IMG/VR virus record: IMGVR_UViG_3300008110_000304
Span: 1 to 33,962 of that record
DNA: 33,962 nt
Source: a virus
Direction: 5' to 3' (one strand)
Shown here: piece by piece, positions 5,582 to 33,642 of the stretch
How the letters are laid out: each line of letters opens with the position of its first letter
How positions within the stretch are numbered: position 1 is the stretch's first letter
Notes under the pieces: generated by a model
Seen by the model: only the letters and a program-made list of their open reading frames with translations
Told to the model about the DNA's origin: nothing
The model's database searches: none
Made by a program: the position numbers and the translations under genes

Positions 5582-6891
5582 AGGATGCTGGCATTAGTGC
5601 GGCTGCGAAGGGTCTTGGCTCGACGTTGGGTGCGACGGGCATTGGCTCGCTTGGTATGACTGCGGCTAACGTCATGACCCCCGAATACAAGCCGCCCAAG
5701 GGTTCGGACGAAGAGAATCTGTACTACATCTCCGAAGGCTACGACCCGGATAAGGGCTTCCTTGGTGGTCGATATGTCAATAAGTACCCCGGTCTTCCGG
5801 GCTATGCCGAGGGTGGCGACGTTGCCCCGCAGCCTCCGCCGCAGCAAGATCCACAGCAAGATCTGAGAAATTATTACCAGAGTCTCTTGTCGGCTCCGCA
5901 GCAGGCACCCCAGCAGAACCCTGCTCTTCAGCAGTACATGTCTGATCTGAACAAGTTTGTGGCCACATCTGGCCCGACTGCGCCTAAGACTTCTCCGACT
6001 TACGTGGCTCCCCCGCCGCCTCCGCCGGATGTCAAAGTGCCGGATCAGCCCAAGCCGCCTGCTCCCCCGCCGCCCCCGCCTAGAACACCGGGTGGTGGTC
6101 AGGACACCTTTGATCCCAACAACTTTGATTGGGATGCTCTCAGCCAGTTTGGTGTAGACAGGGAGACTGTCGAGCAAGCCATGCGTGACTATCGGGCTGG
6201 TCAGAACACTAACCCGATGCAGAATGTGAACGATACCCGGATGCCCGGTGTGGCTAACCCGTTCGTCGAGGGATATACCCCGGACTTTAATAACCTCGAC
6301 TTCACGCAGTTGCCGGGGTCTGGTGGTGGTATGAATCAAGACTTTAATGCCATGAATCAGAACTTCGGTGGCATGAATCAAAACACGGGTGCTGCAACGG
6401 GCAACCTGACCGGGATTGATCAGTTCTCTGATCCGATGTATTCGGGCATGACCGATATGGGCGACAACCTAGCCATGAACGGTATGATGGATATCGGCAG
6501 CATGAACCGTGGTGTGCAGGACTATATGCAGGACTACGGCATGCAGAACTACATGCAAGATTACGGTATGGGCATGGACAATATGTACGCCGCTGGCGGA
6601 CAGTTGGGTAGCTACTCTGATGGTGGCCGTATGCTCCGTGGCCCCGGCGATGGTATGTCTGATGATATTCCTGCCGAAATCCGTGGCCGCAAAGGTCGTC
6701 AGCCTGCCCGGTTAGCCGATGGTGAGTTTGTTGTTCCTGCCGATGTGGTGTCGCATTTGGGCAACGGCTCCTCCGAGGCTGGCTCGCGCAAACTCTATAA
6801 GATGATGGACAACATCCGCAGAGCACGTACGGGCAAGACTCGTCAGGCTCCGCAAGTGAAGGCCGAGAAGTATCTGCCGAGGAAAAAATAA
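5473..6891 (+). CDS. C-terminal part of the frameshifted virion protein
   Basis: This frame is open from 5344. Its first start-like codon in the good region is a TTG at 5473 with no ribosome binding site, so it is probably the continuation of the frame begun at 5174. It contains an Ala/Gly-rich stretch, a Pro-rich linker (about 6007-6100), and Met/Asn/Tyr repeats (MNQDFNAMNQNFGGMNQN; DYMQDYGMQNYMQDYGMG). The conserved end includes RGPGDGMSDDIPA, RLADGEFVVPADVVSHLGNG and RKLYKMMDNIRRARTG. That C-terminal block is widespread in structural proteins of freshwater and marine phages. Likely an internal or tail-associated virion component; function unknown. Confidence 0.72.
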   Translation: MGGEAAKSTLQTAAQEAAKQGVKTYGSNLLGGVSALKDAGISAAAKGLGSTLGATGIGSLGMTAANVMTPEYKPPKGSDEENLYYISEGYDPDKGFLGGRYVNKYPGLPGYAEGGDVAPQPPPQQDPQQDLRNYYQSLLSAPQQAPQQNPALQQYMSDLNKFVATSGPTAPKTSPTYVAPPPPPPDVKVPDQPKPPAPPPPPPRTPGGGQDTFDPNNFDWDALSQFGVDRETVEQAMRDYRAGQNTNPMQNVNDTRMPGVANPFVEGYTPDFNNLDFTQLPGSGGGMNQDFNAMNQNFGGMNQNTGAATGNLTGIDQFSDPMYSGMTDMGDNLAMNGMMDIGSMNRGVQDYMQDYGMQNYMQDYGMGMDNMYAAGGQLGSYSDGGRMLRGPGDGMSDDIPAEIRGRKGRQPARLADGEFVVPADVVSHLGNGSSEAGSRKLYKMMDNIRRARTGKTRQAPQVKAEKYLPRKK

Positions 6892-7925
6892 TGAGCAGTG
6901 GCGGCGGCGCACCAGCACCTACATCCAACTACTCAACCGGCACGACGGGTGGGAGCAGTCAAGTAAGCGTTGACTCTCCTGCCTCATCTGCTCCCGGTGG
7001 TAAGGGTGGATTCCCGTCTGCACAGAACCCGTATGCTCAGCAGCAGCCGCAGGTTTATATGCCTCCGCAGCAGCCGTCGTTCTATCAGCAGGCATTTCCT
7101 CAACAGCAGGCTTATACGCAGAGCAGTTTCTACGCGCCGCAGCAACAGCAGGGCTTTATGAGTCCTTATAGCCAGAACTTTTATGCTCAGCGCCGTCCGT
7201 ACAGATCACAGTCCTCACCGTTCGACGCTCCCAAGCCGCCCGGTGAGATGCAGTATTCAGGTCAGTATGCTCCGCAGGCTCCTGCTGGACTTCAGAACAA
7301 CCCGGACTATGTTCCGCCTAGTGCATTGCGTGAAGTTCGCGCGGGGCCAGATGGTTTGCAGATGATGTCTGACTCGTGGGGAAGACGACCGGGCCGTGAA
7401 TATGCTGTCCCGACAAACCAAACACCTCAGTACGGTGGCCCCGGAGCGGTTCCGGTTGAAGCTACGCGAGGTGTAGCTTCAGACAATATAAATAACCCTG
7501 CGTATCAGCAGCAGTTGGCAGCGTCTAACATGACCGATTATCAGCGGTTGATGCAAAGAAAAAATAGTGCCTCCGCAGGCCCGTATGTCAATCCATTAAC
7601 TGGCGAGGTAGGTGGCGTAAATCCGTTTGCACAAGTCAGTGACTTAGAAATTGCTAATTCGTTGGGGTACAAAGACCCTAGTGCGAACATGATGTCTGAT
7701 GATCGAGCAAGGATGCCTTTCGATGCGAACCTTGGCTTGCAGGGTCTTCGGCAGCAGATGGCTGCGGCAGGTACGCTTGGTCAGTCGAGTCAGAATGAAA
7801 AAGCCAAAGAGTACTTGAACAGTATTGGCTACGGTCAGGCCGGATTTGATGCTTCCAAGTATGAAGTGAAGAGACAGCCGGTTTCTACTGGGACTGGGCT
7901 TGGCGCTTTGTTAGGCGGTTATTGA
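6891..7925 (+). CDS. Gln/Pro-rich low-complexity virion protein
   Basis: 344 residues, ATG overlapping the previous TAA by one base. The N-terminal 110 residues are Ser/Gly then Gln/Pro/Tyr-rich and probably disordered. The start MSSGGGAPAP resembles the start of the gene at 8365 (MSSGGGGGSAAP). Near the C-terminus ANLGLQGLRQQMAAAGTLGQ matches ANLGLQGIQQQLAAAGTLGQ in that same gene, backed by a 69-nt DNA segment identical at 62 positions. The gene therefore appears paralogous to, or partly copied from, its neighbour. No enzyme motif is visible. A virion or scaffold-like role is inferred from position. Confidence 0.6.
   Translation: MSSGGGAPAPTSNYSTGTTGGSSQVSVDSPASSAPGGKGGFPSAQNPYAQQQPQVYMPPQQPSFYQQAFPQQQAYTQSSFYAPQQQQGFMSPYSQNFYAQRRPYRSQSSPFDAPKPPGEMQYSGQYAPQAPAGLQNNPDYVPPSALREVRAGPDGLQMMSDSWGRRPGREYAVPTNQTPQYGGPGAVPVEATRGVASDNINNPAYQQQLAASNMTDYQRLMQRKNSASAGPYVNPLTGEVGGVNPFAQVSDLEIANSLGYKDPSANMMSDDRARMPFDANLGLQGLRQQMAAAGTLGQSSQNEKAKEYLNSIGYGQAGFDASKYEVKRQPVSTGTGLGALLGGY
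7725..7793 (+). repeat. Intergenic-copy repeat, copy 1 (in gene at 6891)
   Basis: A 69-nt segment matching 9427-9495 at 62 of 69 positions, in the same reading frame, encoding ANLGLQG...AAAGTLGQ. Most differences fall in a few codons. Identity at the DNA level suggests a fairly recent duplication or gene conversion between neighbouring virion genes. Confidence 0.8.
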
Positions 7926-31986: not shown

Positions 31987-32103
31987 TCACCAGTATTCCC
32001 TCCCACCTCTTGATGCACCCCAACTCGGTGGCGGCACGTGTGCCCACTCTCGACGGCGATACTCTTCGCGTCTCTTAAAGAAATCTAACAGCCAACGGAT
32101 CAT
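31987..32103 (-). CDS. 38-residue basic micro-protein
   Basis: A short frame fills the gap between the alpha-CTD gene and the coiled-coil gene. Its ATG overlaps the preceding stop (ATGA), and AGGAGG lies 7 nt upstream. The predicted peptide begins MIRWLLDFFKRREEYRRREW and ends with a Pro/Gly/Ser/Arg tail and EYW. The amphipathic start followed by many arginines suggests membrane or nucleic-acid contact. The strong ribosome binding site and ATGA coupling are the main support; function unknown. Confidence 0.55.
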   Translation of the reverse strand: MIRWLLDFFKRREEYRRREWAHVPPPSWGASRGGREYW

Positions 32104-32552
32104 GCTTCGCCCTCCTTGAGCAAACGATGTAGTTGCTCAATAAGTTTTGCATACTCAAGTGACTTCACCGGATCATCGACGTTGCAGTTAATCACAAGAC
32201 GATGCGCGGCAATCCGCATAGCTTTGATCAGTTTCTCTCTCGTGACCGGCACGATATGCTCATCAGGACTAGCAACATTGAGATCGCTTGGAGGCCAATT
32301 CTCCAACTTCATATTAAATTTCAAACCGACCTGCACCAAAGATTTTTCCAACTCTTCGATTGACTTCCTACCCAAGTTGGGTATGCAGAGAAGTTCCCAT
32401 CTTTGTTTTTGAACGAGTTCGCCAATCGTGTTTATCCCACCGGCTTTCAAACAATGACTCAAACGAACTGTTAGCCAAAGTTCATCAACAGGTGCGGTAA
32501 ATATGTTTGGATACCTTGACAGGATATCTTTCTTTAAGTCGTACTCGCTCAT
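32100..32552 (-). CDS. Stand-alone RNA polymerase alpha C-terminal domain (alpha-CTD) protein
   Basis: 150 residues. Residues 21-88 align without gaps to E. coli RpoA 256-323. Residues equivalent to DNA-binding R265, C269, K271, G296, K298, S299 and E302 are present (R30, C34, K36, G61, K63, S64, E67); N268 is His (H33). The end, MKLENWPP (81-88), matches RpoA. The sigma-contact E261 is Trp (W26), and the 287 patch T-E-V-E reads Q-R-W-E. There is no RNA polymerase N-terminal domain; a helical tail of about 60 residues follows instead. It may bind UP elements or host factors and redirect host transcription. ATGA overlap with the methyltransferase; AGGAG 5 nt upstream of the ATG. Confidence 0.88.
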   Translation of the reverse strand: MSEYDLKKDILSRYPNIFTAPVDELWLTVRLSHCLKAGGINTIGELVQKQRWELLCIPNLGRKSIEELEKSLVQVGLKFNMKLENWPPSDLNVASPDEHIVPVTREKLIKAMRIAAHRLVINCNVDDPVKSLEYAKLIEQLHRLLKEGEA

Positions 32553-33208
32553 GTCATCTCCTGTCGGACGAATTCGATCCTGCTGTACGGAATCAATGCA
32601 GCGGTCTTATGTCCTTCTCTTGGATAGATCAACGCATAGTTCGGACGATCTAACATCAGGGCGTTCATCACGCCCTTTTCTGTTCCCTCAAAGTCATCGA
32701 ACACAAAGATCGTGCCGTCGTAGACAATCTTAGACAGCGGCTCCATGTCTTCTTGGCTCAATCGACCATCCAGATACACCATGTCCATCGACTGATCCGG
32801 CCCCAACTTCGCCAACTCCTCAAACATCTTGTGTGATGGAGTCTTGTAGAAGTGCTTGATGTTCTGATCACCGGGGCTGACACAGATCTTGTTCGACACA
32901 TCGCATGTGTAGATAGTGCAGCCGGAGAACGCATTACGCATCGTCACCGTAGATGTACCGATGAACGTACCGACCTCGGCAATGTTGTACGGCTTGAAGT
33001 ACCGGGTTATCAGATACAGGTCTTCAGCGTCACCGTAACTAATTGATCCGGTGTTGTATGACGCTTTCTCTCTGTATTTTTCCTGATCGTTGACGATATC
33101 GCTGATACTGTCTTCTACCCATTCCATGCTGTCGCGGTCAGAGATGATCTCCCAGAACATCTTGCTGAAACGTCGCCGTCCTACCTGCAAGTTCTTGAAG
33201 CGGCTCAT
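32549..33208 (-). CDS. SAM-dependent methyltransferase (class I, Methyltransf_24-like)
   Basis: 219 residues. IAEVGTFIGTSTVTM (76-90) is the SAM-binding glycine loop; IYTCDVSN (99-106) ends strand 2 with the acidic residue. MDMVYLDGRLSQEDM (141-155) and IFVFDDFEGTEKG (167-179) match the metal/active-site strands of O-methyltransferase-like enzymes with a YLDG motif. It differs clearly from the second methyltransferase at 27809. Substrate unknown; sugar or small-molecule O-methylation is the best guess from the family. Co-translated with the alpha-CTD gene through ATGA, and it overlaps the DUF3310 gene by 4 nt. Confidence 0.75.
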   Translation of the reverse strand: MSRFKNLQVGRRRFSKMFWEIISDRDSMEWVEDSISDIVNDQEKYREKASYNTGSISYGDAEDLYLITRYFKPYNIAEVGTFIGTSTVTMRNAFSGCTIYTCDVSNKICVSPGDQNIKHFYKTPSHKMFEELAKLGPDQSMDMVYLDGRLSQEDMEPLSKIVYDGTIFVFDDFEGTEKGVMNALMLDRPNYALIYPREGHKTAALIPYSRIEFVRQEMT

Positions 33209-33642
33209 GCGTTCTTCCTCGCAGTAATCTCACGCTGCAAGTACCACGCAGCCTTCTCAAGATCCTGCACCGGATCGGAAGACTTCTTCCCTGCGCGACT
33301 CACATACTTCACGACGTTACCCAGTCGGTAGTTAAGATCTTTGGCTTCGATGAAATCGATAGTCTCAAAGCCACCGGCCTTGTAGTGCGGGGGATGATTC
33401 ACGGGATCGATTTCGGTTGCTTGTAGTCTGTGTTTTGGCCTTCTCATCTCAATCACATCCAACACTTGCTTCATTTCGGTCACAGCCTTCACGATCTTCG
33501 ACTTCTTGGTTTTGTTTTTGTAGTTACGTAGTACGACAGCGATGAGTGCATGGCTGCACTTCAACTTCGCTTTAATCTCTTTGACGGTCTTACCTTCGTC
33601 GTACAACTTACGAATTTGCTCAGATTTATTTACCTTTGACAT
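33205..33642 (-). CDS. HTH domain fused to DUF3310 (T7 gp1.7-like)
   Basis: 145 residues. The N-terminal 45 residues (SEQIRKLYDEGKTVKEIKAK, LKCSHALIAVVLRNY) form a helix-turn-helix of the homeodomain/resolvase type. Residues about 78-143 are a DUF3310 domain: DPVNHPPHYKAGGFETIDFI, then YRLGNVVKYVSRAGKK and LEKAAWYLQREI. T7 gp1.7, in this family, is a nucleotide kinase acting on dTMP/dGMP. It may supply dNTPs during replication; the HTH could tie it to DNA or regulation. The start overlaps the VRR-NUC gene by 17 nt, with AAAGGAGA upstream. Confidence 0.8.
   Translation of the reverse strand: MSKVNKSEQIRKLYDEGKTVKEIKAKLKCSHALIAVVLRNYKNKTKKSKIVKAVTEMKQVLDVIEMRRPKHRLQATEIDPVNHPPHYKAGGFETIDFIEAKDLNYRLGNVVKYVSRAGKKSSDPVQDLEKAAWYLQREITARKNA

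Follow-up and report, generated by a model that had tools for sequence, protein, structure and literature searches.

A phage gene for a stand-alone RNA polymerase alpha C-terminal domain, possibly a modulator of transcription at UP elements

The phage DNA analysed here, a 33,962-base IMG/VR virus record (IMGVR_UViG_3300008110_000304, hereafter the window), encodes a stand-alone C-terminal domain of the RNA polymerase alpha subunit (alpha-CTD). Its features are listed in Table 1; proteins were called from mechanical open reading frames, and start codons are presumed. As the sequence-only reading had held, the domain comes without the rest of RpoA. The model PF03118 (RNA_pol_A_CTD) matches the 150-residue protein with 62.7 bits against a cut-off of 23.8 (E = 2.6e-17) and is the sole Pfam match at E 0.001; an ADP-ribosyltransferase or acetyltransferase domain is absent. 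The best PDB chain is E. coli alpha-CTD (E = 8.5e-20), and the best ungapped score against alpha-CTD is 194, while the maximum across 1000 shuffles is 46. The ungapped match to E. coli that had been noticed at residues 21-88 is borne out over residues 20-91, where 38 of 72 positions (53%) are identical. The alpha-NTD/insert domain of RpoA (PF01000) has no match in the protein, the virus record or its relatives, with positive controls detected, and the full-length RpoA model TIGR02027 gives 57 bits, below its cut-off of 227.8. Having no alpha-NTD, the protein therefore has no place in the polymerase core. The alpha-CTD protein has no match in PHROGs.

What structure does the protein adopt? An AlphaFold2 model built on a 42-row alignment has a pLDDT of about 93 over most of the alpha-CTD and low confidence in the linker near residues 92-104. 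The best PDB match found by Foldseek is 3k4g_B, at 0.8 A over 73 columns. The domain is thus predicted to have the helix-hairpin-helix fold of alpha-CTD, the outcome for which prediction and superposition had been proposed as a check. The helical tail that had been suspected appears in the model as two helices (105-125 and 128-147). No homologue of this tail was found outside the window lineage, and no known polymerase-binding motif was found in it.

Table 1. Features of the alpha-CTD gene, its neighbours and the promoter of relatives
Feature	Position	Strand	Basis
Whole gene, 150-aa stand-alone alpha-CTD protein	32100..32552	(-)	Open reading frame, ATG start; sole Pfam match PF03118
AGGAGAT, likely ribosome-binding site (AGGAG = 32558-32562)	32556..32562	(-)	Read from sequence
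N-terminal lead, residues 1-19, with a single short helix (6-13)	32496..32552	(-)	Model
Alpha-CTD, residues 20-91 = E. coli 255-326	32280..32495	(-)	Ungapped alignment, Pfam, predicted fold
Arg30, equivalent of R265	32463..32465	(-)	Alignment; R in 61/61 phage domains having the column
Residues 59-67, NLGRKSIEE, equivalents of N294, G296, K298, S299, E302	32352..32378	(-)	Alignment and family conservation
Flexible linker, residues 92-104	32241..32279	(-)	pLDDT <50 at 93-101
Lineage-specific helical-hairpin tail, residues 105-147	32112..32240	(-)	Model; no homologue outside lineage
Weakly methyltransferase-like gene directly upstream; its stop overlaps the alpha-CTD gene start	32549..33208	(-)	Open reading frame and weak match
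DUF3310 gene with helix-turn-helix-like start; in L002 and L008 the alpha-CTD gene follows it directly	33205..33642	(-)	Open reading frame and Pfam
Perfect sigma-70 promoter with UP-like block	L180 9553-9598; L215 near 2340; L217 near 1450	(-); (-); (+)	

The full-length gene is conserved in five sister contigs. Over the full 150 residues, identity is 97-100% in L001, L002 and L003 and 73% in L008 and L009. Compared with L008, the Nei-Gojobori omega is 0.22 overall, 0.15 in the CTD (where dS is high) and 0.23 in the tail; judged by these ratios, the gene is under purifying selection. The window also encodes DNA polymerase A and a primase-helicase. Its methyltransferase-like gene sits between the DUF3310 and alpha-CTD genes; in L002 a related gene (6450-7106) comes after the alpha-CTD gene, and none adjoins that of L008. 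A 53-kb relative, G001 (L002 and L179-L181), matches the window over most of the window's right half and carries genes for terminase, portal and capsid proteins. The terminase shares about 50-53% identity with its counterparts in phage DSL-LC04 and in Pelagibacter phages HTVC023P and HTVC027P, whose genomes are about 58-62 kb. Elsewhere in L002 (1004-3483), an AAA ATPase adjoins a DUF2201 metallopeptidase/VWA protein, whose family PHROGs labels 'HNH endonuclease' and in which Pfam sees DUF2201. Neither a T7-type RNA polymerase, for which a T7 control was detected, nor sigma region 4 was found in the window or its relatives, these records being fragments. Because no phage RNA polymerase was found, though in fragmentary records, the phage probably relies on the host enzyme.

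Does the domain retain the means to bind DNA? Eight of the nine residues of the 265 determinant are kept (R265, C269, K271, N294, G296, K298, S299 and E302, in E. coli numbering), and the ninth, N268, is histidine. The seven contacts that had been named as kept all stand, and N294 joins them; passed over were N268H and a further change, K291C, both of which may weaken DNA binding. For the window alone, the DNA surface (8/9 kept) does not differ significantly from the other host-invariant columns (28/44; Fisher p 0.24). Strong retention of the surface is a pattern of the whole family described below and not of the single sequence. The change of the sigma-contacting E261 to tryptophan had also been pointed out; it is real in the window and its 97-100% relatives, but L008 and L009 have glutamate. 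Since L008, the nearest diverged sister, keeps E261, the sigma-contact argument is lineage-specific, and loss of the contact was rejected as a defining trait. L008 retains N268 as well, but has K271R. An acidic residue (E or D) stands at position 261 in 45 of 62 phage domains. The alteration of the 287 patch was read correctly: residues 285-287 are TEV in E. coli, QRW in the window and QKY in L008. The patch is thus basic/aromatic in both sister lineages, and this common character may point to a new interface, which we infer; position 287 is highly variable across the 62 phage domains.

Is the window protein a single oddity? Scanning IMG/VR with a profile turned up 122 viral relatives. Of these, 80 loci were kept; together with earlier matches and two phage-collection records they make 62 distinct proteins of 112-334 residues. 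Phage-collection matches from Salmonella, Listeria, Staphylococcus, Enterococcus and Acinetobacter, some annotated rpoA, were left out as probable host sequence. No RpoA N-terminal domain was found in the 57 viral records searched (50 tested and 7 nearer), and 13 of the 50 tested have a Terminase_6N match. The DNA surface holds across the family: the most conserved columns are G296 (62/62), R265 (61/61), E302 (58/62), N294 (58/62), L281 (55/62) and S299 (54/62), and the remaining top columns are mostly leucine core. Note that E302 and S299 lie outside both search patterns, and G296 and N294 inside one. R265 is kept in 42/42 sequences found solely by the pattern that excludes it, so its invariance is not an artefact of the search. 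Architectures vary: some proteins begin with the alpha-CTD and continue into diverse tails, and others end with it after diverse N-terminal parts. Sigma-70 region 4 precedes the alpha-CTD in six loci (L112 3377-4201, L113 3449-4189, L147 3308-4201, L151 3569-4201, L170 3605-4270 and L132 3395-4180); a weaker match lies before the alpha-CTD in L121 and after it in L160. Such fusions unite in one polypeptide both holoenzyme domains that read upstream promoter DNA, and that of L147 also carries a Cro/C1-type HTH.

In a tree of 72 columns, the window clade (100/99) falls in a starred group with beta-/gammaproteobacterial RpoA (95/82). The phylogeny that had been proposed for finding the donor is, on these few columns, consistent with beta/gammaproteobacterial RpoA but does not pin the donor any further. 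A single phage clade was rejected (p-AU 9e-5), in a short alignment with several long branches and unsettled bootstrap. The simplest reading would be repeated capture of alpha-CTD from hosts. The proteobacterial genomes sampled mostly have one PF03118 match, in an RpoA-sized frame. Four of them (G103, G115, G119 and G159) have three to five matches, possibly extra bacterial alpha-CTD proteins, and in G087 a match falls within a 1659-aa open frame.

UP elements normally serve the alpha-CTD of the host. In G001, beyond the region that the window covers, a perfect TTGACA-17-TATAAT promoter lies on the operon strand, upstream of the operon leading to the alpha-CTD gene and preceded by AGATATCTTTTTTATCCAAAGTC; the promoter is also present in G003 and G005, and its UP-like block is identical in all three relatives. 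G001 and G005 agree at 23/23 bases between about -58 and the -35 hexamer and at 20/50 just above, a sharp break in identity. The T-tract of this UP-like block coincides roughly with the sites that the two alpha-CTDs occupy at rrnB P1; in that complex R265 and N294 reach into the UP minor groove, and K298 makes a phosphate contact (PMC7822876). Identity is also high in the leader below the promoter (75/78), and the edge at about -58 may therefore be a recombination joint rather than a functional edge. A second promoter-like site downstream in G001, noticed after the first, shares CTTTTTTAYCCAAA, which has only two exact sites in 53 kb where 0.0006 are expected; in G003 and G005 the sequence upstream of this second site differs and is A-rich. 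In the stretches analysed of two cultured terminase relatives, too few to argue from, the promoter was not found when at least 11/12 matches were required in DSL-LC04 and 12/12 in HTVC023P. Close upstream of its perfect promoter, the 53-kb relative has two strong hairpins, nearly identical and terminator-like, each built on a CCGGTAGCCGCAAGGTT core (L180 10184-10211 and 10428-10455, minus strand).

There is a further question, what such a protein does in the infected cell. The domain, linker and helical module, together with the conserved DNA surface, suggest a protein binding UP-type DNA away from polymerase, and we put the chance that it is an UP-element-binding transcription modulator at about even. 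Using the retained R265, N294, G296, K298, S299 and E302, the free alpha-CTD would bind A/T-rich UP-element DNA in its minor groove, upstream of sigma-70 promoters. It would have been captured from a proteobacterial rpoA and rebuilt as a DNA-binding domain, a flexible linker and a new helical-hairpin module replacing the alpha-NTD, and this hairpin would most likely oligomerise the protein or dock it on a partner. As a tentative first choice, itself rather doubtful, the accumulating protein would compete with the alpha-CTDs of host polymerase at UP-bearing promoters, namely those of host rRNA, other strong host promoters and the phage's own first promoter. Such competition would shift host polymerase to later phage promoters, a timing that we infer. 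Because a lone alpha-CTD binds UP DNA weakly, it would need oligomers or high levels of the protein. Fold, family-wide conservation of the surface, purifying selection, the lack of a detected T7-type polymerase or sigma region 4, the fusions elsewhere and the promoter with its 23/23 block argue for the modulator; the changed N268 and K291, the p value for the window alone, and the fact that UP elements of phage promoters can simply serve host alpha-CTD argue against it. The earlier observation of a free alpha-CTD is confirmed, and its interpretation partly supported: the protein may occupy UP elements, compete with the alpha-CTD of the host or recruit polymerase, each of which is plausible.

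The main rival, which we consider unlikely, is activation: the alpha-CTD would hold A/T-rich DNA at phage promoters, the tail or the altered residues 285-287 would dock on host polymerase, sigma or a protein of the phage, and the additional alpha-CTD so supplied would activate phage transcription. A separate conserved tail, the basic/aromatic patch of both sister lineages, the acidic position 261 of L008 and most phage domains, and the sigma-4 fusions of other phages would suit such an activator, yet the tail has no known polymerase-binding motif and the window lineage has lost E261. Might the protein instead be a general helix-hairpin-helix module of replication, recombination or packaging? 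It does sit among DNA-metabolism genes (DUF3310, a nuclease-like gene, DNA polymerase), but what is kept is the specific minor-groove surface of alpha-CTD, and several relatives carry a fused sigma region 4, which makes this improbable. Very unlikely is a decoy absorbing host or rival-phage factors directed at alpha-CTD, for instance activators or enzymes that modify R265. We know of no attacker of alpha-CTD in these hosts, and the activator-contact patch 285-287 is not kept. In favour of the decoy, R265 is a known phage target, that of T4 Alt and ModA (PMC2988021). Host contamination or a dead rpoA fragment was rejected with practically no probability left: some phage-labelled records of the phage collection do carry whole host rpoA, but the same gene with similar neighbours in five sister contigs, its place inside a phage operon, its omega and the 57 records free of RpoA-NTD all speak against it.

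The added interest lies in the breadth of the family, in the repeated capture, in an R265 that never varies and in the sigma-4 fusions. That phages modify or cleave host alpha is known, and a free copy of its DNA-binding domain would be a different, simpler way to act at the same promoters. Repeated independent capture suggests that a domain long seen as a polymerase appendage also works alone. Since R265 is invariant and the domain small, one substitution (R30A) would separate DNA binding from the rest, and the idea is directly testable. At slightly less than an even chance, tailed phages have repeatedly captured host alpha-CTD and use it, alone or joined to sigma-region-4-like and other modules, to read UP elements independently of polymerase; such proteins would form a widespread, unstudied class of transcription regulators.

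How does the protein compare with known systems? The literature covered, which leaves out most subscription journals, gave labels for phage alpha-CTD proteins and no functional study. Some phage proteins are already labelled as alpha-CTD proteins in databases; the kind is therefore known, and the window protein with its lineage-specific tail is a new member of it. It fits the kind by having an alpha-CTD in a phage genome without RpoA; across the phage proteins neither a common origin nor a common accessory domain was found, a single clade being rejected and the tail unique to its lineage. Proteins of Mycobacterium phage Mithril and Rhodococcus phage Finch are alpha-CTD-like by annotation or structure match, and so is ORF40 of Erythrobacter phage vB_EliS-L02 (PMC9127768); no tail shared with these three was found, and structure matches are weak beyond the domain. 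The cultured Bacillus phage Goe8 encodes an alpha-CTD protein that lacks the RpoA NTD and is annotated 'RNA polymerase subunit alpha' (QDP42789), but this domain is of Firmicute type and C-terminal, behind about 150 unrelated residues. Its gene lies near both ends of the 161,583-base record (L091 1959-2591; L166) and offers a convenient test case. With bacterial RpoA CTD (PF03118; E. coli 3k4g, 1lb2, 3n97) the window protein shares the fold, the ungapped domain and most of the 265 determinant, and differs in the missing alpha-NTD, E261W, the altered 285-287, N268H, K291C and the new linker and tail. T4 Alt and ModA are reported ADP-ribosyltransferases acting on host alpha (PMC2988021), and phiKMV Rac is a reported acetyltransferase-family protein acting on the same subunit. 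The presumed common aim is to redirect host polymerase through alpha; unlike these proteins, however, the window protein has no enzyme domain and is a copy of the target domain itself.
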